A stretch of DNA of 64,000 bases from Clostridia bacterium (lineage in GTDB: Bacteria > Bacillota > Clostridia > Oscillospirales > Acutalibacteraceae). The notes beneath the pieces are model-generated. The model made no database searches, was not told the origin of the DNA, and was given only the letters and a program-made list of their open reading frames with translations. The translations under genes and the position numbers were made by a program. Positions 36,137-59,397 of the stretch are shown piece by piece. The stretch lies in contig JAGBSO010000035.1 in the NCBI GenBank assembly GCA_017631795.1, forward strand, positions 1 through 64,000, written 5' to 3'. How positions within the stretch are numbered: the first letter of the stretch is position 1; every line of letters starts with the position of its first letter.

Positions 36137-37498
36137 TTACGCCATAAGTTTTTTCAGCAACTTTTTCTCAAACTCTTCATCTGACATGAGATGCACATTC
36201 TTTATGATTGTTATACCCATATCGTCTGCTCGTTGCTGCAGATATTCAAGAGCATATTCATCAGATGAATTATCAAAGTCGGTTGTTATAATAAACATTT
36301 TTCCGTATATTGTTCCGAATTTGTTTTTTATGGTGTTGAGTTTGTAAAGCTCTTCAGCAGTGAATTTTCCGTTTTTGCATGAAATGAAATAAGGAATGAT
36401 ACCACGCATGAGAATAACATCAACTTCATTTACAGTATCTTCAATATTTCCGAGTCTTTCCATTACATTCATTCTGTAATATTCGTTTGCATCAGCCGCT
36501 TCATCATGAACAACACTGTCCCAGTCAATGGTGACTCCTGTCATGCAGTCTGTGAATTTGTCATCATTGATGAGTTGCTCGCAGATGATGTATGTCTTCA
36601 ATTCAAGAATAACACCTGCTTTTGTCAGACATAGTTTTACCTGTTTGTTTTTGTATATTATATGTAAAACATTTTCAGAATTATTTTTTCCGTATGAAAT
36701 AAGTCCTGCTTTCATCAGTGCATAAAGATAATAATTATCAGGGAAGTGACCGCCTTGTTTTTTGACAAAACTTTTTGCTTTTTCAATACTTACCAGCAAT
36801 TCATCAGGATTATCTGAGTTGTTTATTTCTTCCAGCAGACCGAGAGCTGTTGTGACGGAATTCCAGAATCTCGGATATGAATGATTATCGTTTCTGTCAG
36901 GACTCCGTGAAGGACCGTTGCAGCATATATCCCACATTTTTCTTATATCATGGCAGAAGTCAATAGAGAATTGCCAGATATGTGTGCAACCGGTTTTTTC
37001 TGTATCATATACAACAGTGCCGCCGTGTGCGATAATGTTTTCTTCAACAGTATTCTGCATCTCGGCTGATTTTGATATTTTTTCTGTTTTACGGTTTCCG
37101 TCGGAATCCTGTTGGCTTTCATAAATGTGTATTCTGCCTGTGGCAGGATTTATCTGATACAGATGGATATCAGGATTTTCAGCAAAAACAAATCCCAGCG
37201 CTGTCAGTATGATATCTTCACCGCCTGAAATATCAAAATAACATGATTTGTTTTCTGAAATAATCCGGTTGAGTTTTGTGCATATGTCGTCAAAATCATT
37301 TTTTATTATCTGCACATATTCAAAGGATATGTTTTCGTATTCCTTCCGGTTGTAAAAACGTTCAAAATCGGGGAGAATAGATTTTCTGAATTTTTCTTCT
37401 TTTACAGAGCCCACATAAATGATTTTTTCGGCATTGAAAGCCATTGCTCCCATAATATTGTGAATCGGAGCTGCATCGATCAGTTCAATAATTGTCAT
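36137..37498 (-). CDS. Card1/Can2-like CARF-domain PD-(D/E)XK nuclease
   Basis: 453 residues matching the DUF1887/Card1/Can2 layout. The N-terminal half is Rossmann-like and CARF-like, with an early AAPIHNIMGAM loop and DISGGEDIILTALGFVF where such proteins bind cyclic oligoadenylate. A linking region follows. The C-terminal nuclease has E358/D360 (NEVDVILMRG) and K375 (YFISCKNG) in PD-(D/E)XK spacing, then EELYKLN. Card1 cuts DNA and RNA when activated by cA4 made by type III CRISPR Cas10. No Cas10 or array is present here, so activator and regulation are unknown. A strong minus-strand promoter precedes it. Confidence 0.78.
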   Translation of the reverse strand: MTIIELIDAAPIHNIMGAMAFNAEKIIYVGSVKEEKFRKSILPDFERFYNRKEYENISFEYVQIIKNDFDDICTKLNRIISENKSCYFDISGGEDIILTALGFVFAENPDIHLYQINPATGRIHIYESQQDSDGNRKTEKISKSAEMQNTVEENIIAHGGTVVYDTEKTGCTHIWQFSIDFCHDIRKMWDICCNGPSRSPDRNDNHSYPRFWNSVTTALGLLEEINNSDNPDELLVSIEKAKSFVKKQGGHFPDNYYLYALMKAGLISYGKNNSENVLHIIYKNKQVKLCLTKAGVILELKTYIICEQLINDDKFTDCMTGVTIDWDSVVHDEAADANEYYRMNVMERLGNIEDTVNEVDVILMRGIIPYFISCKNGKFTAEELYKLNTIKNKFGTIYGKMFIITTDFDNSSDEYALEYLQQRADDMGITIIKNVHLMSDEEFEKKLLKKLMA

Positions 37499-37528
37499 AT
37501 TATCACCTGATTATGAATTCTTGTCTGT

Positions 37529-37557
37529 ATTTTACAATATTTTGTGATATTCGTCAA
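37529..37557 (-). promoter_or_regulatory. Promoter of the Card1-like gene
   Basis: On the minus strand TTGACG (37557-37552), a 17-nt spacer and TAAAAT (37534-37529). AGGTGATAAT precedes the start codon at 37498. Confidence 0.75.
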
Positions 37558-37640
37558 CAGCTTTATTGAAGATGTTTAGTTTTTTTTCGATTTAAGATAA
37601 AAAAAATTTTTACATGGGAGTAATCAGGAGGGTGTATATT

Positions 37641-37661
37641 ATGTATGCAAAGAGAAGTTAA
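37641..37661 (+). CDS. Six-codon leader ORF
   Basis: ATG TAT GCA AAG AGA AGT TAA encodes MYAKRS. It has a strong AGGAGG site about 9 nt upstream, better than many gene sites in the window. It ends 26 nt before the first gene of the VirD4/TIR operon, which has its own AAGGAGG. A translated leader or attenuator is likely. Confidence 0.5.
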   Translation: MYAKRS

Positions 37662-37687
37662 GATCTTTGCACAAGGAGGATTGAAAA

Positions 37688-38131
37688 ATGAAACTCATTC
37701 AGGGTAATTATGAAAAAGCAATCAGACAGTGTCAGAAGGAGTTGAAAAGTGATTATTTTGAATTTTGTTTTTCTTACGTTTCCGCAAATGAAGATTTCCG
37801 TGAGATAAAAAGATTCTTGTGGGAATCCAAAAATCAGTGCACACGTTTCCGAAACAGATATATCGGACCTGCGGTTATCGATATAACTGAATGGAGCAGA
37901 AAATATCCTAATGAATACTTTGATGCTTTTATGTATTTCATTAAAAGTAATATGGAACAGATGCAGTTTATTATCATCTCTCACAATTATTGCAACAAAG
38001 AAATCACTGAAAGGCTTGAAGAATTCTTTAATATCAGAGTTGTTGATGTTGATCGTCGTAAGTCAGCAAACAATAAGAAGAAAAACGTAATCGGATTTGT
38101 TTATACACAGGAGGAAAACAGTTATGTATGA
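37688..38131 (+). CDS. Unknown 147-residue protein, first gene of VirD4/TIR operon
   Basis: No recognised family. It is soluble and mixed alpha-beta. The segment AVIDITEWSRKYPNE then QMQFIIISHNY looks like a strand-helix-strand unit of a P-loop ATPase, with IIISHN in the position of a sensor strand, but no Walker A is present. The C-terminus is basic (VDRRKSANNKKK). AAGGAGG precedes ATG. It overlaps the ATPase gene by 8 nt, so the two proteins probably work together, perhaps as a subunit or adaptor. Confidence 0.6.
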   Translation: MKLIQGNYEKAIRQCQKELKSDYFEFCFSYVSANEDFREIKRFLWESKNQCTRFRNRYIGPAVIDITEWSRKYPNEYFDAFMYFIKSNMEQMQFIIISHNYCNKEITERLEEFFNIRVVDVDRRKSANNKKKNVIGFVYTQEENSYV

Positions 38132-39605
38132 AGCAAAATTTCAGAAGTATGTAACAAAAAGTTCTGCAAGATTTGCAGAGCCTGAAGAGATCTGTGAAAC
38201 TCTTCTTCCTTTGAAGAACGCTGAAAATGTGTTTTCAGCAGGTGTTCCTCTTTATTATAAAGATAAAAATCTTTATGTTGACAATAGTGACGGCCATACA
38301 ATGGTTATCGGCCCTACAGGTTGCAAAAAATCACGAATCACAGTTTTTTCAACAGTTGCATCTGTCATCGAATCCGGTGAAAGTGCAATTATAAATGACC
38401 CCAAGGGTGAAATATTCAGAAAAACTGCTGCCCGTGCAAAAGAAAAAGGCATGAATGTTTTTCTGCTCAACTTCAGAAATCCCAGTAAATCACATTTCTG
38501 GAATCCTTTACGTCAGGCTCTTGCATTCAATAAAGCAGGACTTGAAGATGAAGCATTGCAGTGTATCCATGACTTTGCACACACAGTTGTTGCGCCCTCT
38601 ATTGCAAAAACAAACGACAGATACTGGGGCGACACATCAGAGTCATTTCTTTGCTCACTTGCGTTGGTGCTGATGGAGTCAACATCAGCCGAATATTTCA
38701 ATCTTACTAATCTTATACCTCTGTGTTATGAAGAAAATCATTCAAAATTGAAGAGATTGCTTTCTGATATGGATGATACTTCAATCGCGGCATTCGGATT
38801 GCATACTGTTCTTGATCTTCAGGCAGAAAAGACAAAGTCATGTATCTACAGTACTTTGCTTGCAACTCTGAGCCCGTTTATGAAAAACAGAAACCTGCTC
38901 AAAATGCTCAGTGACAGTTCATTTGATATTGAAGATATCGGCAAAAAGCCTACACTTGTCTATATCGTATATCCTGATGAAAAGAATTCATTGAACTTTC
39001 TTGTTAATCTGTTCTTCACACAGTGTTATGAAACTCTCGTAAGTTATGCTCACAGATGCAGCGGTGATAAGCTTCCCGTAAGAGTAAACTTTATCATTGA
39101 CGAATTCTCAAACCTTACAAAAATCGAGAATTTCAGCAACCGTATCAGTGAAGCAAGATCAAAGAATATACGCTATTTCCTGTTCCTGCAGTCATACGGC
39201 CAGTTGAAAAATAAATACGATAACGATGCGGAAACAATCATCTCAAACTGTAATAACTGGGTATGTTTCAGCTCAAAAGAGATGGACTTCCTCGATAAGA
39301 TAAGCCGTATCTGCGGTAATGAAGTGGATTACAACGGTATCGAGCACAGTCTGCTTTCACCTTACCGGATGCAGCATCTCAGAAAAGGTTATGAGATTTC
39401 CGAAGTTCTTATCATAAAACAGGGACTTCACCCCTACATGGCAGATTTGCCCGACTTTGATTATGTTGATGAATTCCGTAATTACAAACCGACAGATCTG
39501 ATTGATATTGATGCTTTCAGCAATGCTTGCTTTATCTCGTTTGATGAATGGCGTGATAAAATCAGAGAAGGTGTGTTCAGATATCCTTTCCGCAAAGCAG
39601 CATAA
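38124..39605 (+). CDS. Soluble VirD4/TraG-like ATPase
   Basis: 493 residues. Walker A is GPTGCKKS (residues 63-70), a K-K variant of GPTGSGKS. The following INDPKGEIFRKTA is the VirD4 family block, with NFIIDEFSNL (Walker B, about 320-330) and YFLFLQSYGQL after it. Coupling proteins pump DNA or protein to a type IV channel, but this one lacks the N-terminal membrane helices and no relaxase, channel or pilus gene is nearby. It is therefore likely repurposed. Start ATG 38124 has AGGAGG; the frame opens earlier at 38097. Confidence 0.8.
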   Translation: MYEAKFQKYVTKSSARFAEPEEICETLLPLKNAENVFSAGVPLYYKDKNLYVDNSDGHTMVIGPTGCKKSRITVFSTVASVIESGESAIINDPKGEIFRKTAARAKEKGMNVFLLNFRNPSKSHFWNPLRQALAFNKAGLEDEALQCIHDFAHTVVAPSIAKTNDRYWGDTSESFLCSLALVLMESTSAEYFNLTNLIPLCYEENHSKLKRLLSDMDDTSIAAFGLHTVLDLQAEKTKSCIYSTLLATLSPFMKNRNLLKMLSDSSFDIEDIGKKPTLVYIVYPDEKNSLNFLVNLFFTQCYETLVSYAHRCSGDKLPVRVNFIIDEFSNLTKIENFSNRISEARSKNIRYFLFLQSYGQLKNKYDNDAETIISNCNNWVCFSSKEMDFLDKISRICGNEVDYNGIEHSLLSPYRMQHLRKGYEISEVLIIKQGLHPYMADLPDFDYVDEFRNYKPTDLIDIDAFSNACFISFDEWRDKIREGVFRYPFRKAA

Positions 39606-39620
39606 TCGATAAGTTTATTG

Positions 39621-39649
39621 TTGACAAAATACGATTGATTGTATATAAT
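39621..39649 (+). promoter_or_regulatory. Consensus promoter of the TIR-LRR gene
   Basis: TTGACA (39621-39626), 17-nt spacer, TATAAT (39644-39649). Expected start near 39656, giving the TIR-LRR gene and the permease their own transcription besides the upstream genes. Confidence 0.88.
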
Positions 39650-39707
39650 TAATAACATATAATTACATTTTATAACAGTTTTTATATAAAACAGGAGGAA
39701 GATTAAA

Positions 39708-41357
39708 ATGGCAAACATAAAAAAAACTAATACGGTTGCAGAAGTTCAACCCGAATACGATGAGGTGCATACAAAATTTGAAGCATATACAGGCGTTGAA
39801 CCGTATCTTTTCGTGAGCTATTCCCACAGAGATACAGCAGTAGTTTATCCGATTCTTGATGCGCTTTATGATTGTAAATACAGAATCTGGTATGATGAGT
39901 CCTGTGAAAACGGAATGGATTTCAGAGATGAACTCCGTCAGAGAATCAAGAATTCCGAAGCTATAATATTGTTTGTTTCCGATTCATCAATGCAGTCACC
40001 TTTCTGCGGTATGGAAATTATTGTAGCAAGAGAATATGATAAGAAAATCTATCCTATTTTTATTGATGATGTAGCTGTTCCTCCTGCTTTTGAACTGTTG
40101 CTTTCCAATACTCACCACAGCACAGCAGAAAATATGGATAAACTCATGAAGGCAATGATCAGAGATCTTCCTGCTGTGGCAATGGACAGACTTATCATTG
40201 AAGATACTCTTCTCAGAGAATGTGTTGACAACGGCGAAGAAATTGAGGTTGATGAAGGAATTACAGTTATCTGTGCAGGTGCTTTCAAAGATCGCCGTAA
40301 ACTTCACAGAATAAAGCTTCCCGAAACACTGGAGTCTATTGAGCATGAAGCTTTCAGAGGCTGCGGAAAAATCGGTGAAATGGTTATTCCCGAAAAGACA
40401 ATAAAAATCGGCGAAAGTGCATTCAGAGACTGTGTAAGCCTTAAATCACTTGTCGTAAAGAACAATTGCATTAAAATCGGTGAACGAGCATTTGAAAACT
40501 GTGCACAGCTCAGTCAGGTAGAATTGCCTTCAGGTCTTACAGAAATTTACGGCGGCGTATTCAACAGCTGTAAAAAACTCAAAAAGATCGATCTTCCCGA
40601 AAAACTTACAATTCTCGGCGAAAGTGCTTTCTCTGATTGTGACGGACTTGAAAGCATTGATGTGCCCGAAACTGTTACAAAAATCGACGACCTTGTTTTC
40701 AACGGCTGTTTAAGTCTTAAGGAAATTAATCTTCATGAAGGTCTTAAGAAGATCGGTAAAGGCGCATTCAAAAACTGTAAATCTCTTACAAGCATAACAA
40801 TTCCCTCAACCGTAACAAGTGTCAGTGACGCATTGTTCAGAGGTTGTGAAAAGCTCAGATCAATCAAAGTTGAGCCCAAAAACAAATATTATAAATCAGC
40901 ACCCACAAAGCGAGACGGTAATGATCATGTTCTGTTCAACAAAAACAAGTCAGAACTTATCGCATATCCCGCAAGCAGCCATGAAATCCAGTATGATATA
41001 CCCGATAGCGTAACAGTTATCTGTAACTGGGCATTCTGCGAATGTGAAAAGCTCACAAGAATTACAATTCCCGACAGCGTTATCGAAATCGGTGAAGGTG
41101 CATTCTGTAATTGTAGTGATCTTGATGAAGTTGAAATCCCCGACAGCGTTATAAGAATTGACGACTGCGCATTCAGAGGCTGTGAAAGACTTGAAAAAGT
41201 TGTTATTCCCACGTCAGTAAGAGAACTCGGATGGGGACTTTTCGACGGATGCGAAAACTCTGTAGTTGTATATTGTGAAGAAGGCTCTGCTGCTCAGGAC
41301 TATTGTATCCGCAACGGAATCCGTGAAGCGCGTATCTCCGAGGAGGAGCATAATTAA
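39708..41357 (+). CDS. TIR domain fused to BspA-type leucine-rich repeats
   Basis: 549 residues, no signal peptide, so cytosolic. The TIR domain spans about 31-165: strand A YLFVSYSHRD (33-42), box-2 region RIWYDESCENG (59-69), and the catalytic-type Glu E103 in SPFCGMEI, consistent with NADase or cyclic-ADP-ribose chemistry. About fifteen 23-residue LRR_5/BspA repeats follow (170-540), such as ITIPDSVIEIGEGAFCN. Other BspA proteins in this window are secreted with dockerins; this one is not. AGGAGG precedes the ATG. Enzyme or scaffold function is inferred. Confidence 0.85.
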   Translation: MANIKKTNTVAEVQPEYDEVHTKFEAYTGVEPYLFVSYSHRDTAVVYPILDALYDCKYRIWYDESCENGMDFRDELRQRIKNSEAIILFVSDSSMQSPFCGMEIIVAREYDKKIYPIFIDDVAVPPAFELLLSNTHHSTAENMDKLMKAMIRDLPAVAMDRLIIEDTLLRECVDNGEEIEVDEGITVICAGAFKDRRKLHRIKLPETLESIEHEAFRGCGKIGEMVIPEKTIKIGESAFRDCVSLKSLVVKNNCIKIGERAFENCAQLSQVELPSGLTEIYGGVFNSCKKLKKIDLPEKLTILGESAFSDCDGLESIDVPETVTKIDDLVFNGCLSLKEINLHEGLKKIGKGAFKNCKSLTSITIPSTVTSVSDALFRGCEKLRSIKVEPKNKYYKSAPTKRDGNDHVLFNKNKSELIAYPASSHEIQYDIPDSVTVICNWAFCECEKLTRITIPDSVIEIGEGAFCNCSDLDEVEIPDSVIRIDDCAFRGCERLEKVVIPTSVRELGWGLFDGCENSVVVYCEEGSAAQDYCIRNGIREARISEEEHN

Positions 41358-42502
41358 TGGATGTTGAAAATACGAAAAAATCATTCCCGAAAATTCTGAT
41401 ACAATTTATTAAAAAGAACGTAGTAATGACGGTCGCCCTTCTGGCGGCTGTCATTACAAGCGTTTTTGTTCCTGTTGATAAAGAATATCTGGGATACTTT
41501 GATTTTAAGACACTTACTTGTTTGTTCTGTGTACTTGCAGTTGTATGTGCACTGAAAAATATCCGCTTTTTCTATCTTCTTGCAAAAAAAGTCGTTCAGC
41601 TTTTCAAAAATGCCAGAATGAGCATTCTTGCATTGGTGTATATAACATTTATCGGTTCAATGCTGATTGCGAATGACATGGCGTTGCTGACATTTCTTCC
41701 GCTCGGATACTTTGTTCTTACAACTACGGGCAAAGAAAAATATATGGCATTCACATTTATAATGCAGAATATTGCGGCAAATCTCGGCGGTATGCTTACT
41801 CCATTCGGAAATCCGCAGAATCTGTATCTCTATTCAAAATTCAATATCCCGAATCTTGAATTTATGCAGATAATGGCACCGCCCTTTATTCTTTCAGTTA
41901 TTCTTATTACAATCTGTTGTTGTATATTTGTAAAACCTGAGCCTCTTGAAGTTGAAAATGAAAAAATCAGCCTTCCTGCATGGAAAACAGTGCTTTATCT
42001 GATTCTTTTTGTTCTTTCAATAGTAATTGTTTTCAGAGTTATTCCTTATCAGATAGGTCTTGCAGTTATTCCTGTTGTGCTTCTGATAGTAGACAGAAAA
42101 GCTCTTAAGATGGTTGATTATCCCTTGCTTCTGACATTCGTTTTCTTCTTTATTTTTGCAGGAAATATGGCACGAATTGACATAGTAAGAGAGTTCTTCT
42201 CAATGCTTCTTGAAAAAAGCACATTGTTATTCAGTGTTATGTCATGTCAGGTTATAAGTAATGTACCGTCGGCAATATTGCTGTCACAGTTTACCGAAAA
42301 TTACAGAGACCTTCTTGTCGGTGTAAACATCGGTGGTGTAGGTACATTGATATCATCACTTGCCAGCCTTATCACATTCAGTGAATATACAAAACATAAT
42401 CCGGGCAAAACAGGATATTATGTTAAGAAATTCTCAATTTTCAATTTTGCATTTCTCATAATCCTGACAGGATTTATGTATGTATTCAATATGATATTTT
42501 AA
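41357..42502 (+). CDS. ArsB/SLC13-type ion transporter
   Basis: A 381-residue membrane protein of about ten helices from the ion transporter clan (ArsB, CitM, SLC13). The signature LTPFGNPQNLYLYSK lies in the re-entrant region, and NVPSAILLSQF in the second half. The substrate (anion, citrate or sodium/proton) is not clear. It overlaps the TIR-LRR stop by 1 nt (TAATG) with AGGAGG upstream, so it is translationally coupled. A transporter as the last gene might move ions as an effector. Confidence 0.75.
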   Translation: MDVENTKKSFPKILIQFIKKNVVMTVALLAAVITSVFVPVDKEYLGYFDFKTLTCLFCVLAVVCALKNIRFFYLLAKKVVQLFKNARMSILALVYITFIGSMLIANDMALLTFLPLGYFVLTTTGKEKYMAFTFIMQNIAANLGGMLTPFGNPQNLYLYSKFNIPNLEFMQIMAPPFILSVILITICCCIFVKPEPLEVENEKISLPAWKTVLYLILFVLSIVIVFRVIPYQIGLAVIPVVLLIVDRKALKMVDYPLLLTFVFFFIFAGNMARIDIVREFFSMLLEKSTLLFSVMSCQVISNVPSAILLSQFTENYRDLLVGVNIGGVGTLISSLASLITFSEYTKHNPGKTGYYVKKFSIFNFAFLIILTGFMYVFNMIF

Positions 42503-46871: not shown

Positions 46872-47894
46872 TTAATAATGTGCTATTAAAGACTTTTCTA
46901 TCATTGTTGATAATTCATCTTGCGTTTTGTTATATTTTGTTTCAGGACTATCGTTTACTTTTAATTTGTTTAAGTAATAATAGTCATAATAATCATATGT
47001 TTCTTCTAAGATTCTTAATATGCTGTAATAAAAAGAATTTCTTACATAATCAGGAGTATCATGTATTGTATTATACATCTCAACAAAACAACTTGCTATT
47101 TTTGTGAGCATTTCTTGTAAATTTGCATCAACATCAAATTCAACTACTTTGTATTTTTCGCATAAATCAAATAATTCTTTTATTTTTTTGCCATCAATAC
47201 CTTTTTTATTCAATGCATCTATCAGATAGTTTGGCTCACCTGTTGCACTGACTTTAAAGAGAATATCAGGGTCTATCAATTCGCATAAGCACCGGATAAT
47301 ATTTGCTTTGGTACTCCAACCATCACCTTTTTTGTCAAAATATTCATAATTCAACAAACTGGTAAAGCCTTCTGAAAACCAACCATATCCTTCAGGCATA
47401 TTTTCTTTTTCTATACAATGAAATATTTCATGAGTTAATGATTCCTGTCTGTATTCATTTGTCGCAAAAGTTATGGAATTGTCAGCATTATATGTAGCAG
47501 ATATACCTTCTTTTAATAAAAAGGGATTATTCCATGTGATTTTGAAAGTTTTTAATTTTTCAAAAACATGGTTATAATCAATGTATTTATTGTCTTTAAA
47601 GTATTGAATATAGTTTGACAATTCTTCTTTTTCTTTTTTTCTTAAGCTGCTATTTGAGACAATTGCATAATATAATGCTTCTGCTTTTTTCTGTTCTGTA
47701 TCCTCATTTTCAATGTTATTAAAAGCATCTTCATAGTTTGCATAGCTATTTGCATTTGATTCTGCTTTATAACAAAAAAATATTCCTGTTGCTGTTAAAC
47801 ACAGTGTTAGCAGAACAGCTACAATTATAATGATAGGTACTTTACATTTTTTTTCTTTTGTGCAAGTTTTTTCAAAAACTTCGCTGTTTTTCAT
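46872..47894 (-). CDS. Membrane-anchored zinc metalloprotease-like protein
   Basis: 340 residues. A short cytosolic Lys/Cys-rich start, then one membrane helix (VPIIIIVAVLLTLCLTATGIFF), and an extracytoplasmic domain. The motif SLTHEIFHCIEK (HExxH) is followed about 12 residues later by WFSEGFTSL, so Glu is the likely third zinc ligand, a gluzincin-like layout. The gene is more AT-rich with different codon use than its neighbours, which suggests acquisition. ATG 47894 has GAGG; ATG 47999 is an upstream alternative. Confidence 0.65.
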   Translation of the reverse strand: MKNSEVFEKTCTKEKKCKVPIIIIVAVLLTLCLTATGIFFCYKAESNANSYANYEDAFNNIENEDTEQKKAEALYYAIVSNSSLRKKEKEELSNYIQYFKDNKYIDYNHVFEKLKTFKITWNNPFLLKEGISATYNADNSITFATNEYRQESLTHEIFHCIEKENMPEGYGWFSEGFTSLLNYEYFDKKGDGWSTKANIIRCLCELIDPDILFKVSATGEPNYLIDALNKKGIDGKKIKELFDLCEKYKVVEFDVDANLQEMLTKIASCFVEMYNTIHDTPDYVRNSFYYSILRILEETYDYYDYYYLNKLKVNDSPETKYNKTQDELSTMIEKSLIAHY

Positions 47895-48037
47895 TGTTAA
47901 TAACCTCATTTTCAGTTGTAGGAAGTTGCATATGCAACAAAAAGAATAGTTCTGTTTTTCAGATGATTTTATTGTAACATAAACATCATTTATATTCACT
48001 TTATTAAAAATCTATTTTTGTATATTCATACTATATT

Positions 48038-52233: not shown

Positions 52234-55200
52234 TTAGTTTATTACAAACTCTCGTGTATTTCCGTCAATTGTGATTTTCACTTTGCTTCCTTCAAAACAT
52301 TCGGGCAGACAAGGATTTGTTATTATAAGACCTCCTGTCTGTGTGATTCCGAGCATTTTTTCATAAACTGTTCTGTAAAACCATCCTGCAGAGCCTGTAT
52401 AAATACTCCATCCGCCTCTGCCTGTAATGTCTTTTCCTGAATAAATATCACCCGCAAGGTAATAGGGCTCAGTTTTATAGATCGCATGATCTTTTGTGGC
52501 AGGATTCAGCGTTTTAAGAATCTCATAACCTTTGTCACCGTTTCCCGACGAGAAATATGCATCTGCAAACCAGACTGCACCATGCGTGTATTGTCCTCCG
52601 TTTTCACGGATTCCCGCCGGATATCTGTTTACATAACCTGCTGTTTTACCGTCTGCTGTGAATGGCGGATAAAAGAGTTTTACCATATCATTATCTTTGT
52701 CATAAAGGAGTCTTTCTGCGGTTGCAAGAGCAATTGAACACCTGTTTTTGTCAGGCATACCTGCAATTGCACTCCATACCTGAGGCAGCAGGTCAATTTC
52801 GCATTGACTGTCACCTGATTTTCCCATTGGTGTACCGTCATCATAAAAACAGCGAAGATATCTGTCATCTGCCCATGCATGTTCATCAACTGAAAGCATA
52901 AGTCTGTCTGAAAGTTTTGTGAGCCTGTCTGCTGTAATTCTGTCTTTTGTCTGAAGAGCAGTGACGGTAAATTTTTTCGCCACAAAGCTTAGAAACATTG
53001 CAAGCCAGACACTTTCGCCCTTGTGTTCAATTCCCACAGCATTGAATGAATCGTTCCAGTCACCGCCTTTTATCAGCGGCAAACCGTGTTTTCCGAATGA
53101 ACAGGCGTGGAAAATCGCTCTCAGACAATGGTTATAAACCGACGCTTTTTTATTGCTGAGTGTGTATTCGCCATATCGTTCTTTTTCACCTTTTTCAAGC
53201 ACAGGCGCATCAATGAATGGAATTGAAATATCAAGAATCGACGTGTCACCAGTCTTGGTGCAATATTCACTCACTGCAAGCGGCAACCACAGTAAATCAT
53301 CGCTGTAATGCGTCCTGACACCCCGTAAAACACGTTTGTTGTTTATTATCAATTGATGAAACCAATGAAGCACATCGCCTTCACAGAATTGCGCAGCAGC
53401 ACAACGGATGATGTGGGTGCGCAGAATTTCGGGATGAGTCAGAATTACTGCCATAGCATCCTGTAACTGGTCACGGAAACCGAAAGCACCGCTGCACTGA
53501 TAAAAGCCCGTCCTGCCGTTGATTCTGCCCGAAATTATCTGATTAAGAAGAAAATTATTGAAAATCAGATTCAGCTCTTTGTCGGGAGTTTCTATCTCTA
53601 TTTTGTTCGTATTCACTTTTTTTGGCGGAATATAAGGCATATTTGCTGCCGCTTTTATATTCTGTGAATAGGAAAGATAAAATTTCACAGTTGTCTGGTT
53701 TTTTGACGGAAGAATTATCTTTCTTTCAGCAACAATACAGTCATTTTTCAGCTCATTCCGTTTTTCACCGCATAGAAAAGCTGTTTTATCTGTAAGAAAA
53801 ACACATTTTTCGTCAGAAGAAATGCAAAGAAATCCACCGAAAACCGTGTTGAAGGGATTGTGAGCAAAGATTTTGTTATCCTTTATCACAGTTTTTATAA
53901 AACGTGAACTCTTTTTATTATCTACCATGACAGGCTCTGTATAAAAATATAATGAAAATTGCTTTTCTGTATTGCTGTTGTTTAGAATTTCAATTTTTAT
54001 CTCTTTGCACATGTTTTCGCCTCTGACAGACATTGTAGTCTGAAAAATCAGCTCATCGGCGGCAGAGAGATAACGTGCTGACCCGTTTTCAAAAACTGCG
54101 GTTGCCCCTTTTATGATGTCGTATCTTTTTTTGTCTGTTTCAAGCAGAAGCAATTCACCCGAGAGTCTTTCCCTTGTGTCATTGCTCCATGGTGTGAGTT
54201 TGTTTTCTCTTGAATTCATCGCCCATGAAAAACCTGAAGAAGAATCCGAAACGAGTGTGCCGAAATTTCTGTTTGCAATGATGTGACACCACGGAAGATA
54301 AGGCGTTTTTCCTGTTATATAGCCGTTTTCAGTAAATGAATTTTCCGTAATTTTTATTTTTTTACAGGGATGAATCGGAATCATTCTGTTTGCTGAAGAC
54401 GTCACTTCGTTATTTTTTTCGGGATAAACAGCAGTCGCACAGGCTGTGAGAAGCAAAAGGTCATTTTTTGTCAGATTATCAGTGTTTAAAATAAAGATTC
54501 CGCCTCTGTTTCCGATAATGTCAGACATCGTATCACCGCAAAGTTTCCTGATATTTTCCGTAAATGAATCAATATAACCCTCTGTGCTGTCTGTAATAAA
54601 AACTATCTCAGTAATTATTCCTGCAAGACGCAGTTTGCTGTAAAGTTTTATAAATGCTGAAGTTGCGGTTACATCATTTTTATCGGCAAAAACAAGGATA
54701 ACAGGGTAGTCGCCCGAAACACCTGTTTTCCATAAATCATCCCGTGATAAAACATTTTCTTTCACAGCTTTCAGTGTTTCTGCAGAAAGACTCCTGCCGA
54801 AAAAACTTCGTTCAATCACTTTTTTTGCGTAAATTCCCGTTATACTTGTTTTGTCAAACAGTGACAATGCGCATTTTGATAAAGACGGAAGAGAGTTTTT
54901 GCGTATTGATGCAATACGGTTTACACTTTCCTGAAAATCAGAAGCACCGCAGATAATCAGAGCTTTTGTTATAGTTTCCTTAGGTGCAAGAGTGAGTTTT
55001 GTTTTTATAAAAATGCACTTGTCTGCAGATTTGGATGAAAAATCAATTTCTTTTGAAAAAATTTCTGCAATGTCAGAATTTCTTGGTATAACGGCTTCAC
55101 GGTCATCGCAGAATTCAAAATCTGTCTTGTCAGCAAATCCCACGGAAACATAAATCTGTTTTTCTTTGTTGTGCTGTTTTCGTGTCACAGATAAAAGATT

Positions 55201-58200
55201 TTCTTCATCATTTTTTCTGATATCAATAAAAAGTTTTGAAAAAGCAGGATGTGCAATCTGCCCGTTGATATTTTCCAGAATCGGCTCACAGTAAATCATC
55301 AGCTGAATCTGCTTTTTTTCCTTTGTTTTGTTTTTGATGGTGTAACGATGAATCTGTGCAGGTAAAAATGGATGGACACAGACCGATTCACTTATTGCAA
55401 AACTGTTATTGCTGTTTCTGAAAACAGAAGATGTTGAATCAAAAGAAGTGCTGTGATTCTGATTACTGATTATCGCACCTGAAAATGAAAGAATTTTTTT
55501 ATCATTTTTTATTGCAGCAAAAATTCCGTCAGGGAATGAGAATAGCGACTGTCTTTTTGCAAAAATGCAGGTGTTACCGTATACGGAAATTGATTTTCCC
55601 GAGTCTGTTGTAAAAACACTCCATTCTCCGTTTGAAATTGTGTGGCTTTCATAGGAAAAAGGGGAGATTGATTTATATTCATCATTGATTTTCTGCATTC
55701 TTTCAGGTCTTTTCAGAGCTGAAACATCATCAGTGTTTTTATAAACTTTCATGTCTGAGGGTATTCTTTCGTCAAGCAGACTTTTTCCGCCTGACATAAA
55801 CGAATTTTTCATAAAACGCCGTTGCATGATATTGTCAAAAACCGCATTTGCAGCGGAAAGAAAACTCATCCCCACATGATGTGCCATGTAACTTCTGACG
55901 ATAGAATAATTCTGTCCGTCGGTGCGTGACGGAGTGTAATCAACAGCCTCATAAAAACCGAATTTTCCGTACATTCCTATTTTTTTAAGTCTTTGAAGGT
56001 TGTTTATAGCAGAATGCGGGTCAAAAGGAATTGTCAGGAATGTGGAATAGGGTGAAATGACAGTTTCGTTTTCTGCTGCTGTTTTCATTGCAATGCTGCT
56101 GACACCGTGTGCTTTGTAACGATAATTCAGTAAAGGGTCAAAGGCATAATAACCGCTTTCTGAAATACCGTAAGGAATATTCCTGCTTTTTACACGTTTT
56201 TTCTGACAATGGATGCAGAATCTTAGTGCTTCATAACCGAGAGTATTTTTTTCGGACGGAATAAAAATCGCAGGCATGAAATATTCAAACATCGTGCCTG
56301 ACCAGGATACGGGCCCTGTGTATCTGCCGTTTGCAGAAAGCGGTCTTGCAAGAGTCTGCCAATGGCTGACAGGCACTTTTCCCGATGCTGTTGCAAAATA
56401 ACTTGTCATTCTCGCTTCACTCATCAGCAGGTCAAAAAGGCTGCTTGTCAGCTCATTTTTTTCCGTATCAAACCCGATACGGAAAAGTCTGCGCCGTTTG
56501 TCATATAAAAAATCAAGGTCGCATTCGTCGGTGATTCTGTTGCATATTTCAATTATTTCTCTGAGTTTCGGATTTTCATTTGCGTAGCTTTCAAGTCCTT
56601 CTGCAAGAGCTACGATGCAACACAGAAAATTCCCGCTGTCAACGGTTGAAATGAATTTCGGCTGCATTATTTCAAGAGTGCGTGTGTTGTACCAGTTGTA
56701 AAGATGACCTTTATATTTCTCCATTTTTCCGATAGTCTCAAATGATTTTGAAAGTTTTTCATAAAGCTCATCCGAATCTATAAAATCGAAATCTCTTGCG
56801 GCAAGAAATGAACAAAGCATCATGCCGATATTTGTGGGCGATGTCCTGTCAGCTTCTCTGTAAACAGGAATTTCCTGAACATTGTCCGGAATCAGATAAT
56901 TATTTTTTTTGTTGCAGTGAGTTTCGTAAAATCTCCACATGGAAGCACAGTAGGAGAGTAGTCTGTTTTTTTCGTTTTCTGAAATTTTTGTTTCGTGTGA
57001 GATTTTTTTTCTGGCAGATAAAACAGAAAACGGCAGGTCAAGAATCAGCAATATTCCTGCAAATACCGAGACAGGATTGCCGTAAAAAACAAGAAAAATT
57101 CCCGCTATAACAGACGGTATTGATTTTTTCGCAAAAGAAACGGCAGTGCCCGAATTACTGTCAGCGGCAGTTGTCCATTGAAGCAGATGCTTTTTTGAAA
57201 CAATCATCCTGAAAAGACTTCGTATAACAGCATCAGCACAGCATACAGCTTCAGTCACCATCATAACGACCGAAGTGAAAGCTTTTGCAAGACACGCAAG
57301 TGCATAGGGCATTGCATCTGAAAAATACAGCCTTGAAAACATTGAAATTCCGCCGTTTATAAGAGTTATAAAGCACGAAAAAAGATGCGGCATTGCCATG
57401 GATGCAATCGCAGTTGCCGACAGAATGACAGATGCTGTATCAGGCAGAAAAACAGATGAAATCAGGCACAATGAAGCGATAACAGGTGTCAGAGCACGGC
57501 GGATGTTGTCTGCAAGCCAATATTTGCCGAGAACTGAAATGCTTCCGTAGGGGACAGAATTTTTTCTTTTGAAAATGAAAGGGAGATTCTGAATATCACC
57601 TCTTATCCATCTGTGAAGACGTCTGAAATACGCATTTTCATTTGGAGGAAAAGAATCTGTCAGCGTTATATCACCTGCAAATGCAGTCCTTAAAATGATC
57701 CCTTCAAGAATATCATGGCTGAGTATTCGTTGCTCAGGAAAACGGTCAGGCATAAGTGTGTTGAAAGTTTTAATGTCAATAAGTCCTTTGCCCGAAAAAA
57801 TACTTTCGGAAAAAAGTTCCATATATTTTTCTCTGACAGAAGATGTGTATGCGGGAAGACCTCCGTTGCCTGCCATAACAGATGAATAATGCGTTTTGCA
57901 TGCAGATTTCACATCCGTTTCAACTCTCGGTGAAATTATCCCGTATCCTTGTGTCACACGTTGTTCACTGACTGAAATGACAGGTCTGTTTACAGGATGT
58001 GCCGCAATTGCTACGAGTTCGCTCAAAGACCCGAGCGGCATGGAAGTGTCTGAATCAAGTGCCATGATATATTTTGCACCTGCGAGGTTTTCCTTGTTAC
58101 CGCGAAGAATTGAAAAATCATTTCTGCCTTCTGTAATAAGCTTTGCAAGGGAGATTATCGCACCGCGTTTTCTTTCATATCCCGTGTATTCATTTTCGGA

Positions 58201-59325
58201 CTGCGAATATGTGCGTTTGCGTATTGCCAGAATTATTCTGTCTGCACATTGCCTGTTCAGTGTGTCAACAGCACGTATGATTGATCTGATATCCGCATTG
58301 TCGCTTTCGTTTGTCGGATTTTGTGAGTTTTTCAGGTCAGCAAGTATGCAGATGCAGGCGTTGTCACGACAATTTGAAAGATAAAGATTTTTAACATTTT
58401 CGCATAAGTCTTTTGTGCAGCCTGCAGACGGCAGTAGTGTGGAAATTGCTATAACCGTTTTTTCGCTGTCGGGAATACCGTCTGAAAAATCCATTTTGAA
58501 AACAGGCTCTTTTGCGGGGATTTTTGAAACAATGAAATCTGTTATAAATTTCATGGCTTCCCATAACGGCAGATATAATAATAAAAACAAATACCATTCT
58601 TTTGCAATAACAGAAAAACCTATGCCTGCAATCAGCGGAATAACCGCTTCCGTTACAAGAAGCAGTTTGCCGATGTTTTGTCTGTCTTTTTTTATATCCA
58701 GAAAAAATCCTATATGTTTGTTTTCTTTTTTTGCCTGTTCAAGAATACGTTTTGCAACAACTGTTTCATCTGAATTCTCTTTTTCGGCAGTTTTGTGAAT
58801 TGCCGTGCGGTAAGTTTCTTTTGTCTGCTCACTCATGTTGCGGTATACACCTGTCGGATCCTGACACAGCAGTTTTTCTGTTTCACTTGCTTTAAGAAGT
58901 ATTTCACCGAAATCAATGTCAGGCAAAAGAAAAAGTGACCTGACCGCATTTATCATAACATCTTCGTTTGTTTGAGCATTCTGAGCTATCATGTCAATCA
59001 GAGTGAAAGCAATTGCAGTGGGCAGAGTCTGAAAAAATACAATTGACACTTTTTTGTCTGCAAGAAAAGAAATTATATCCCGTGTTTGAGGTAAATTTCC
59101 GTTGGCGCAGAGTTGGTTGCATAATTCAACCGAAGACTGCACGGAAATACATATATTTTTATTTTTTAAGGCTTTTGACACAGCTGTGAAGTTTTTTTCA
59201 ATAATATGAAAATTATCCGTAAACCACATTATGCTTTCATTTTTTTCGTTTATGGAACTGAATGACTTTTTATATTTTCTGAGCAATCTGATATTTTTTT
59301 TCAGAACAGTTTTTAAATATTTCAT
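52234..59325 (-). CDS. Giant GT84-GH94 cyclic beta-1,2-glucan synthase-like protein
   Basis: About 2,363 residues. An N-terminal helical region (WFTDNFHIIEKNF) and membrane segments near 230-275 precede a GT84 glycosyltransferase with DSDTSMPLGSLSELV (about 420) and QGYGIISPRVE. Further helices lie at about 610-770. Two beta-sandwich modules and a C-terminal (alpha/alpha)6 GH94 domain follow, with GGDWNDSF near 2,088. This matches cyclic beta-1,2-glucan synthases (NdvB, Cgs), though shorter than the Brucella enzyme. It would polymerise UDP-glucose and cyclise or phosphorolyse the product. Start ATG 59325 has GGTGG nine nt upstream. Confidence 0.82.
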   Translation of the reverse strand: MKYLKTVLKKNIRLLRKYKKSFSSINEKNESIMWFTDNFHIIEKNFTAVSKALKNKNICISVQSSVELCNQLCANGNLPQTRDIISFLADKKVSIVFFQTLPTAIAFTLIDMIAQNAQTNEDVMINAVRSLFLLPDIDFGEILLKASETEKLLCQDPTGVYRNMSEQTKETYRTAIHKTAEKENSDETVVAKRILEQAKKENKHIGFFLDIKKDRQNIGKLLLVTEAVIPLIAGIGFSVIAKEWYLFLLLYLPLWEAMKFITDFIVSKIPAKEPVFKMDFSDGIPDSEKTVIAISTLLPSAGCTKDLCENVKNLYLSNCRDNACICILADLKNSQNPTNESDNADIRSIIRAVDTLNRQCADRIILAIRKRTYSQSENEYTGYERKRGAIISLAKLITEGRNDFSILRGNKENLAGAKYIMALDSDTSMPLGSLSELVAIAAHPVNRPVISVSEQRVTQGYGIISPRVETDVKSACKTHYSSVMAGNGGLPAYTSSVREKYMELFSESIFSGKGLIDIKTFNTLMPDRFPEQRILSHDILEGIILRTAFAGDITLTDSFPPNENAYFRRLHRWIRGDIQNLPFIFKRKNSVPYGSISVLGKYWLADNIRRALTPVIASLCLISSVFLPDTASVILSATAIASMAMPHLFSCFITLINGGISMFSRLYFSDAMPYALACLAKAFTSVVMMVTEAVCCADAVIRSLFRMIVSKKHLLQWTTAADSNSGTAVSFAKKSIPSVIAGIFLVFYGNPVSVFAGILLILDLPFSVLSARKKISHETKISENEKNRLLSYCASMWRFYETHCNKKNNYLIPDNVQEIPVYREADRTSPTNIGMMLCSFLAARDFDFIDSDELYEKLSKSFETIGKMEKYKGHLYNWYNTRTLEIMQPKFISTVDSGNFLCCIVALAEGLESYANENPKLREIIEICNRITDECDLDFLYDKRRRLFRIGFDTEKNELTSSLFDLLMSEARMTSYFATASGKVPVSHWQTLARPLSANGRYTGPVSWSGTMFEYFMPAIFIPSEKNTLGYEALRFCIHCQKKRVKSRNIPYGISESGYYAFDPLLNYRYKAHGVSSIAMKTAAENETVISPYSTFLTIPFDPHSAINNLQRLKKIGMYGKFGFYEAVDYTPSRTDGQNYSIVRSYMAHHVGMSFLSAANAVFDNIMQRRFMKNSFMSGGKSLLDERIPSDMKVYKNTDDVSALKRPERMQKINDEYKSISPFSYESHTISNGEWSVFTTDSGKSISVYGNTCIFAKRQSLFSFPDGIFAAIKNDKKILSFSGAIISNQNHSTSFDSTSSVFRNSNNSFAISESVCVHPFLPAQIHRYTIKNKTKEKKQIQLMIYCEPILENINGQIAHPAFSKLFIDIRKNDEENLLSVTRKQHNKEKQIYVSVGFADKTDFEFCDDREAVIPRNSDIAEIFSKEIDFSSKSADKCIFIKTKLTLAPKETITKALIICGASDFQESVNRIASIRKNSLPSLSKCALSLFDKTSITGIYAKKVIERSFFGRSLSAETLKAVKENVLSRDDLWKTGVSGDYPVILVFADKNDVTATSAFIKLYSKLRLAGIITEIVFITDSTEGYIDSFTENIRKLCGDTMSDIIGNRGGIFILNTDNLTKNDLLLLTACATAVYPEKNNEVTSSANRMIPIHPCKKIKITENSFTENGYITGKTPYLPWCHIIANRNFGTLVSDSSSGFSWAMNSRENKLTPWSNDTRERLSGELLLLETDKKRYDIIKGATAVFENGSARYLSAADELIFQTTMSVRGENMCKEIKIEILNNSNTEKQFSLYFYTEPVMVDNKKSSRFIKTVIKDNKIFAHNPFNTVFGGFLCISSDEKCVFLTDKTAFLCGEKRNELKNDCIVAERKIILPSKNQTTVKFYLSYSQNIKAAANMPYIPPKKVNTNKIEIETPDKELNLIFNNFLLNQIISGRINGRTGFYQCSGAFGFRDQLQDAMAVILTHPEILRTHIIRCAAAQFCEGDVLHWFHQLIINNKRVLRGVRTHYSDDLLWLPLAVSEYCTKTGDTSILDISIPFIDAPVLEKGEKERYGEYTLSNKKASVYNHCLRAIFHACSFGKHGLPLIKGGDWNDSFNAVGIEHKGESVWLAMFLSFVAKKFTVTALQTKDRITADRLTKLSDRLMLSVDEHAWADDRYLRCFYDDGTPMGKSGDSQCEIDLLPQVWSAIAGMPDKNRCSIALATAERLLYDKDNDMVKLFYPPFTADGKTAGYVNRYPAGIRENGGQYTHGAVWFADAYFSSGNGDKGYEILKTLNPATKDHAIYKTEPYYLAGDIYSGKDITGRGGWSIYTGSAGWFYRTVYEKMLGITQTGGLIITNPCLPECFEGSKVKITIDGNTREFVIN

Positions 59326-59397
59326 TCGGGAAAACCACCCCTGATGTATTTTTTTTGAATATTTTTCCCCGAAAATATACAAATATTTAAAACAGTG

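Follow-up and report, generated by a model that had tools for sequence, protein, structure and literature searches.

We analysed a 64,000-nucleotide window of DNA from a Clostridia bacterium and focus here on positions 36137 to 42502, where five open reading frames (ORFs) include a two-gene pair, p147 and V, that may act together with the protease ClpP. A gene for a Card1/Can2-like CARF nuclease (36137-37498, minus strand) diverges from the pair, with 189 bp between its start and the p147 gene. On the plus strand follow p147 itself (37688-38131; 147 residues), the gene for V, a soluble VirD4-like ATPase of 493 residues (38124-39605), a gene encoding a TIR domain with BspA-type leucine-rich repeats (LRR; 39708-41357) and a permease gene (41357-42502). 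The ATG of V at 38124 lies inside p147, giving an overlap of 8 nucleotides, and the permease gene starts on the last base of the TIR-LRR gene, an overlap of 1 nucleotide. ORF coordinates thus agree with an earlier sequence-only reading of this DNA on the five genes, their overlaps and the divergent spacing of about 190 bp, and a Pfam scan confirms the housekeeping flanks that it had named, a sugar transporter and topoisomerase IV. The same reading described the plus-strand genes as one tightly packed operon; this does not hold, given a gap of 102 bp before the TIR-LRR gene and a perfect promoter within it. The coherent unit at the locus is p147 plus V.

V matches the Pfam model PF02534 (T4SS-DNA_transf) with an E value of 1.4e-46, which gives it the ATPase core of a VirD4 coupling protein, and falls just under the cut-off of the NCBIfam model CD1115 (1.6e-73; 248.1 bits against 250). 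No membrane segment is present (hydropathy over 19 residues peaks at 1.32, and the Walker A motif lies at residue 63), nor is the N-terminal membrane anchor of conjugative VirD4 proteins; the PF02534 match and the hydropathy together bear out its description as a soluble VirD4-like ATPase. The Walker A motif is a variant, GPTGCKKS (38310-38333, plus strand), in which a lysine replaces the usual glycine before the catalytic lysine. All 10 aligned V proteins have this Lys-Lys pair. In the listed VirD4 proteins of the conjugative type the residues are GKT/GKS or MKT/MKS, one protein being unread. A second V, 37% identical to the first, is encoded in the same genome. The V C-termini of four other loci (L119, L150, L155 and L167) have in common a helical-looking, KELExKFxELF-type tail, and a V of 849 residues (L149:7493-10042) is extended at its C-terminus, perhaps by fusion to a degenerate ATPase domain.

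The partner, p147, matched no family above cut-off in Pfam, PADLOC or NCBIfam, and PDB sequence searches with p147 alone or with the single CARF protein returned nothing useful. It is a cut-down member of a previously undescribed family, which we call P, with an AAA+ fold whose nearest solved relatives are CbbX, HslU and ClpX. p147 keeps the AAA+ core but neither the P-loop region nor the lid, and because it lacks a working nucleotide-binding site we do not class it as a Clp ATPase. Across 59 aligned long P proteins, 22 read GKT/GKS at the P-loop and 37 are degenerate. A longer P-V pair is present elsewhere in the same genome. p147 was not found in other genomes among 150 of the bacterial family, the second match, in genome G148, being a long P.

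The pattern [ILVM]G[FL] lies no more than 15 residues from the C-terminus in 119 of the 120 P relatives listed (as MGF in three of them), the exception being a 212-residue entry, and occurs outside the tail only 15 times in the 31,834 residues of the same proteins. Its form in p147 is Ile-Gly-Phe (IGF; codons 135-137, positions 38090-38098, plus strand), which is kept in all seven short P forms, p147 included. According to PMC8745299, Clp ATPases bear (L/I/V)-G-(F/L) at the tip of flexible loops, which dock with it in the pockets of ClpP. The p147 tripeptide is of this type, and its docking is predicted from a tail that is modelled with low confidence (pLDDT below 50 at residues 125-135 and 139-147, with a mean of 45 over residues 131-140). 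The C-terminal end of a long P model is likewise disordered, at residues 276-283. The fetched loci contain 537 ORFs of at least 150 residues; the motif falls within the last 18 residues of 46 of these, which comprise 20 P partners, 9 related two-domain AAA proteins and 17 others.

We assembled 30 P-V loci including the window, of which 17 came from one scan of genome contigs, to which we added the genome's own second pair, and 11 more from V-profile searches at an E value of 1e-75 against genomes drawn from the order (9 of 394 yielding) and the class (6 of 391). The own genome and G184 occur in both samples, and the match in G148 is the same contig as locus L108. The pair is conserved in the loci outside the window, which supports this part of the sequence-only reading, and no conjugation genes were seen beside the window pair. 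That reading had also looked to absence from sister strains, which agrees with the single same-genus genome drawn besides our own (G080, n = 1), where p147, the CARF gene and the permease have no match.

A ClpP gene lies on the V strand in 7 of the 30 P-V loci (L118, L150, L153, L155, L168, L169 and L170). As a control, 28 loci retrieved with the window V (L008-L035, mostly with 1.5 kb flanks) were checked for ClpP beside VirD4, and one had it. This locus, L011, encodes a VirD4-like protein that is soluble and reads GKT in its Walker A; its gene order is ClpP-AAA-V, and it was therefore moved into the ClpP group as its eighth locus. Ser and His motifs are kept in eight ClpP proteins, L158 included and L011 not aligned. 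In the ClpPs of L118, L153 and L169, an Asn stands where most aligned ClpPs show Asp, near what we take to be the position of the catalytic Asp. The partner tail motif and a local ClpP gene tend to exclude one another: the motif is found in 20 of 21 loci without their own ClpP and in 2 of 8 with it (Fisher p 0.0004, a value that is too small because related loci were not thinned). The one motif-less partner without its own ClpP is that of L122. Two loci, L149 (no partner found, V with an extra C-terminal region) and L154 (partial V, no partner found), stand outside this count; the L121 partner, hidden beneath a longer antisense ORF, was translated from match coordinates; the two-domain AAA protein of L160, which ends in FGF, was scored as a miss; and L126, a near copy beside L125, was not counted. 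This split may reflect two ways of securing ClpP.

Signalling or conflict genes adjoin the pair in 6 of the 29 other P-V loci, which were spotted by eye and then scanned and so are not a blind count. A CARF nuclease follows V on the P-V strand after 36 bp in L113 and after 334 bp in L117, in the latter with one helix-turn-helix gene between and a TIR-kinase also present. In L153, P-V-ClpP is accompanied by TIR-Sel1 and TIR-TPR proteins and by the fusion of a kinase with a Card1-type nuclease; P-V adjoins type I restriction genes in L150; V is paired with a DUF4062-NACHT(-TPR) protein in L149; and a TPR-CHAT protein lies near P-V in L167. Since CARF recurs beside the pair in two other loci and TIR in two (L117 and L153), the combination of CARF, TIR and P-V seen in the window is not confined to it. 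The combination proposed earlier, with its putative role in defence, is supported to this extent; it is not supported for the TIR-LRR protein as a dedicated partner or for the permease as an effector. In L110 (7363-16775), a set of P, V and a third gene has an amidase and an ART-PolyVal protein as neighbours, possibly within a phage-like region.

The CARF protein matches Pfam Card1_endonuc below cut-off and PADLOC CARF4_PDDEXK at 1.9e-18, and its family profile matches VC1899 (1xmx; 5.3e-7) and Can2 (7bdv; 3.2e-6), the latter over profile positions 2-198, which identifies the CARF domain of a Card1/Can2 nuclease. The motifs DWD, NExD and SCK, which we take to be catalytic in Card1/Can2-type nucleases, are invariant in 10 of 10 relatives and supply the PD-(D/E)xK signature. 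A consensus promoter of its own had been claimed for this gene; a promoter-like site does lie at 37557-37529 with a 10/12 match, but seven other sites in the scanned stretch score alike. Among 150 family genomes, 22 contain a match to the CARF gene, in 8 of them with an E value no higher than 1e-30; both counts include the own genome. Searches of the own genome for Cas10, with a Cmr2-type protein as query and with the Csm1 model, found none; the control for the Csm1 model was positive in 7 of 14 genomes.

Seven relatives found with the CARF query were read in context. In L092 (6723-11377) and L095 (3829-8386), the nuclease directly adjoins a protein that combines two AAA domains with peptidase M41, apparently a Clp-FtsH hybrid, and in L094 (2138-9432) it has type III-B Cmr genes on one side (matches to Cmr2, Cmr4 and Cmr6 pass the cut-off, that to Cmr3 does not) and a CRISPR array of at least 12 regular repeats on the other; no neighbour was recognised in L042, a short contig, or in L090, L091 and L093. 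Three further CARF nucleases, reached through P queries, adjoin a two-domain AAA protein (L113, L117 and L156). Beside the nuclease, L113 and L156 have a gene with weak similarity to sigma factors (PF04542 at E 0.006, under the cut-off) and a small gene without a Pfam match that we label anti-sigma-like. No sigma gene was seen adjoining the CARF gene in the window. Varying subsets of a recurrent gene stock, consisting of weakly sigma-like, small anti-sigma-like, CARF nuclease, two-domain AAA and YbjN-like genes, cluster in L113 (4537-8933), L117 (12776-16027), L156 (6583-10916) and L157 (7330-10968), and their two-domain AAA protein has a ClpP-type tail. These clusters could serve regulated proteolysis of an anti-sigma factor.

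The remaining two genes are neighbours. The TIR-LRR protein has the domains and the residue E103 ascribed to it earlier (PF13676, 4.4e-17; PF13306, 2.5e-84), but it is a member of a widespread free-standing family and not part of the core: 633 proteins match its residues 1-180 at an E value of 0.001 or better, and all 120 relatives listed combine TIR_2 with LRR_5, are mostly about 548 residues long and, the query itself excepted, are 66-80% identical to it. These counts speak against the dedicated partner that it had been taken for. It scores just under the Pfam cut-off for ThsB_TIR (20.9 against 21.2) and weakly against the PADLOC ThsB models; with no match to the ThsA model among the eight window proteins scanned, the locus does not qualify as Thoeris. 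The permease, of the CitMHS family (PF03600, 5e-26), had been suggested as an effector. It appears instead to be an ordinary neighbour, a common gene travelling alone, as it occurs in 63 of 150 family genomes with relatives up to 79% identical and no TIR domain lies beside it in 19 other fetched loci (with flanks of 1.5 kb, some of them truncated at the end of a contig). The gap before the TIR-LRR gene contains a sigma-70-type promoter, TTGACA-17-TATAAT (39621-39649, plus strand), which matches at 12 of 12 positions; of the 34 promoter-like sites that the scan of this stretch gave, no other is perfect, so that the TIR-LRR and permease genes can be transcribed alone; as the gap holds no terminator-like site, read-through from V is also possible. 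On the strength of this promoter and of the free-standing character of both families, we rejected the four-gene operon as a unit. A 15-pair stem followed by T's (41423-41457), inside the start of the permease gene, is a possible attenuator or a chance occurrence, and the window also contains an ORF of 2,382 residues (52234-59382, minus strand).

Our best reading, drawn from sequence comparisons, is of a soluble VirD4-class motor that would work with ClpP and would have been recruited into some signalling or conflict loci. We see an even chance that p147 and V act jointly as an ATP-driven machine for passing proteins to ClpP, with p147 docking through its IGF. The ring family to which V belongs threads DNA or protein, and V would be the motor that supplies the pulling force; p147, being nucleotide-free, would keep only an adaptor and ClpP-docking role through its predicted IGF tail; and a ClpP encoded elsewhere in the genome would act as the protease. 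The divergent CARF nuclease would be a co-regulated second arm of the same response, triggered by a second messenger, and the TIR-LRR protein and permease would be independent neighbours outside the machine, which perhaps acts during stress or virus attack. The P-V pairing, the longer paralogue in the genome, the conserved tripeptide tails and the ClpP genes in related operons point this way, as do the CARF or TIR genes beside some P-V pairs. A bolder proposal, which we advance tentatively, is a third ATP-dependent protease architecture in which a VirD4-class ring motor, in place of an AAA+ unfoldase, would thread substrates into ClpP, an AAA+ adaptor, cut down in p147 to its docking part, would anchor the motor by its tripeptide tails, and wiring to CARF and TIR sensors would let a second messenger trigger targeted proteolysis during infection.

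Several observations weigh against the ClpP machine. p147 should by itself be unable to bind ATP and may be too small for a ring, and its tail motif could serve something else. The motif is missing in 6 of the 8 partners encoded with ClpP, so these machines, if they use their own ClpP, would have to dock in another way, and the split speaks against the motif being needed always. The statistic counts kin as independent (L151 and L152 belong to one genus, and L106/L107 and L109/L111 have shared neighbours), and L011 joined the ClpP group only after the control had turned it up. A CARF nuclease stands beside P-V in only 2 of the 29 other loci. Long P-V pairs in L106, L107 and L109 lie among polysaccharide, arginine-synthesis or redox genes, a housekeeping context assigned by Pfam for these three (other loci were judged by eye); the pair alone therefore does not imply defence.

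It is possible, though we think it unlikely, that P-V is a general protein-handling pair and that the CARF nuclease, TIR-LRR protein and permease lie nearby by chance. The free-standing TIR-LRR and permease families, the separate TIR-LRR promoter and the CARF genes without a recognised partner in L090, L091 and L093 would all fit, but chance accounts poorly for nucleases placed on the P-V strand in L113 and L117, or for L092 and L095, which were found by the CARF query alone and still adjoin an AAA+/peptidase M41 protein. We give somewhat less credence to V as a DNA translocase of the HerA/FtsK-capture type, in which p147 would recognise invader DNA, V would pull it and the CARF nuclease would cut it, the tail making some other contact. 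V does belong to the DNA-pumping VirD4 branch (PF02534, CD1115) and weakly matches PADLOC mad8 (2.2e-7), CARF nucleases flank the pair in L113 and L117, and the accessible text of PMC12839542 describes anti-invader capture systems in which HerA/FtsK translocases stand beside AAA+ proteins and nucleases. Yet 26 of the 29 P-V loci outside the window yielded no such nuclease (the exceptions being L113, L117 and the kinase fusion of L153), and DNA capture leaves the ClpP operons and the tail motif unexplained. Because of these last two features, the role in detecting or moving invader DNA first suggested for V and p147 is less likely than one with ClpP.

That the pair is the remnant of a conjugative element whose coupling protein survived is very improbable. 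V matches coupling-protein models, and such proteins are numerous in other genomes of the family, but it has no membrane anchor, its altered Walker A is kept across genera and its partner gene is stable. No relaxase, type IV secretion system or integrase was found among ten flanking genes scanned, one of which (46872-47999) has no family, and the searches of plasmid and phage records found no relatives of the P protein P0001; a decayed conjugative element was rejected on these grounds. Three pattern scans found no relatives of short P, long P or the CARF protein in viral contigs, and on these empty scans, with the plasmid and phage searches, prophage or plasmid cargo was rejected.

The proposed ClpP machine resembles several known systems in part. 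Long P proteins resemble ClpX, HslU and CbbX in their AAA+ fold and in bearing the (L/I/V)-G-(F/L) tripeptide on a flexible segment, but the motif is C-terminal in P and in a loop in the others, the P-loop is degenerate in 37 of 59 long P proteins and absent in p147, and P is encoded with a VirD4-like ATPase. V has the ATPase core of VirD4/TraG coupling proteins (the CD1115 family) and differs in its missing anchor, its KK[ST] Walker A, its AAA+ partner and the lack of visible conjugation genes. The window nuclease combines CARF and PD-(D/E)xK domains as Card1/Can2 do, and its relative in L094 stands beside type III-B CRISPR, whereas two queries found no Cas10 in this genome. CalpL/CalpT/CalpS couple second-messenger sensing to proteolysis and a transcriptional response, as the accessible text of PMC12751052 describes; L113 and L156 similarly place weakly sigma-like and anti-sigma-like genes beside a CARF nuclease, but CalpL is a SAVED-Lon protease whereas a ClpP-type route is predicted for P-V. 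HerA/FtsK capture, BRC and MADS systems pair a pumping ATPase with an AAA+ protein, as P-V does, and are set apart by the VirD4 branch and the ClpP link of P-V. MADS brings several mad genes together, and the eight window proteins scanned gave only the weak mad8 match and none to PglZ or methylase models; a literature search on Mad8 returned unrelated matches only.

The ClpP partners known so far belong to the AAA+ unfoldases, and the VirD4 proteins known so far function in secretion or conjugation. Among the matches listed from the literature searched, which mostly excluded subscription papers and preprints, titles and opening lines of abstracts gave no description of a P-V pair or of a link between VirD4 and ClpP, and the pair is not described in the accessible portions of PMC12839542, PMC12419801, PMC10910872 and PMC7159879. 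If our reading is true, two machine families would be joined by a conserved VirD4-like ATPase that is encoded alongside a docking AAA+ protein and, in several lineages, a ClpP of its own. Proteolysis powered by ATP would then stand with CARF and TIR effectors, adding to the Lon case already known.

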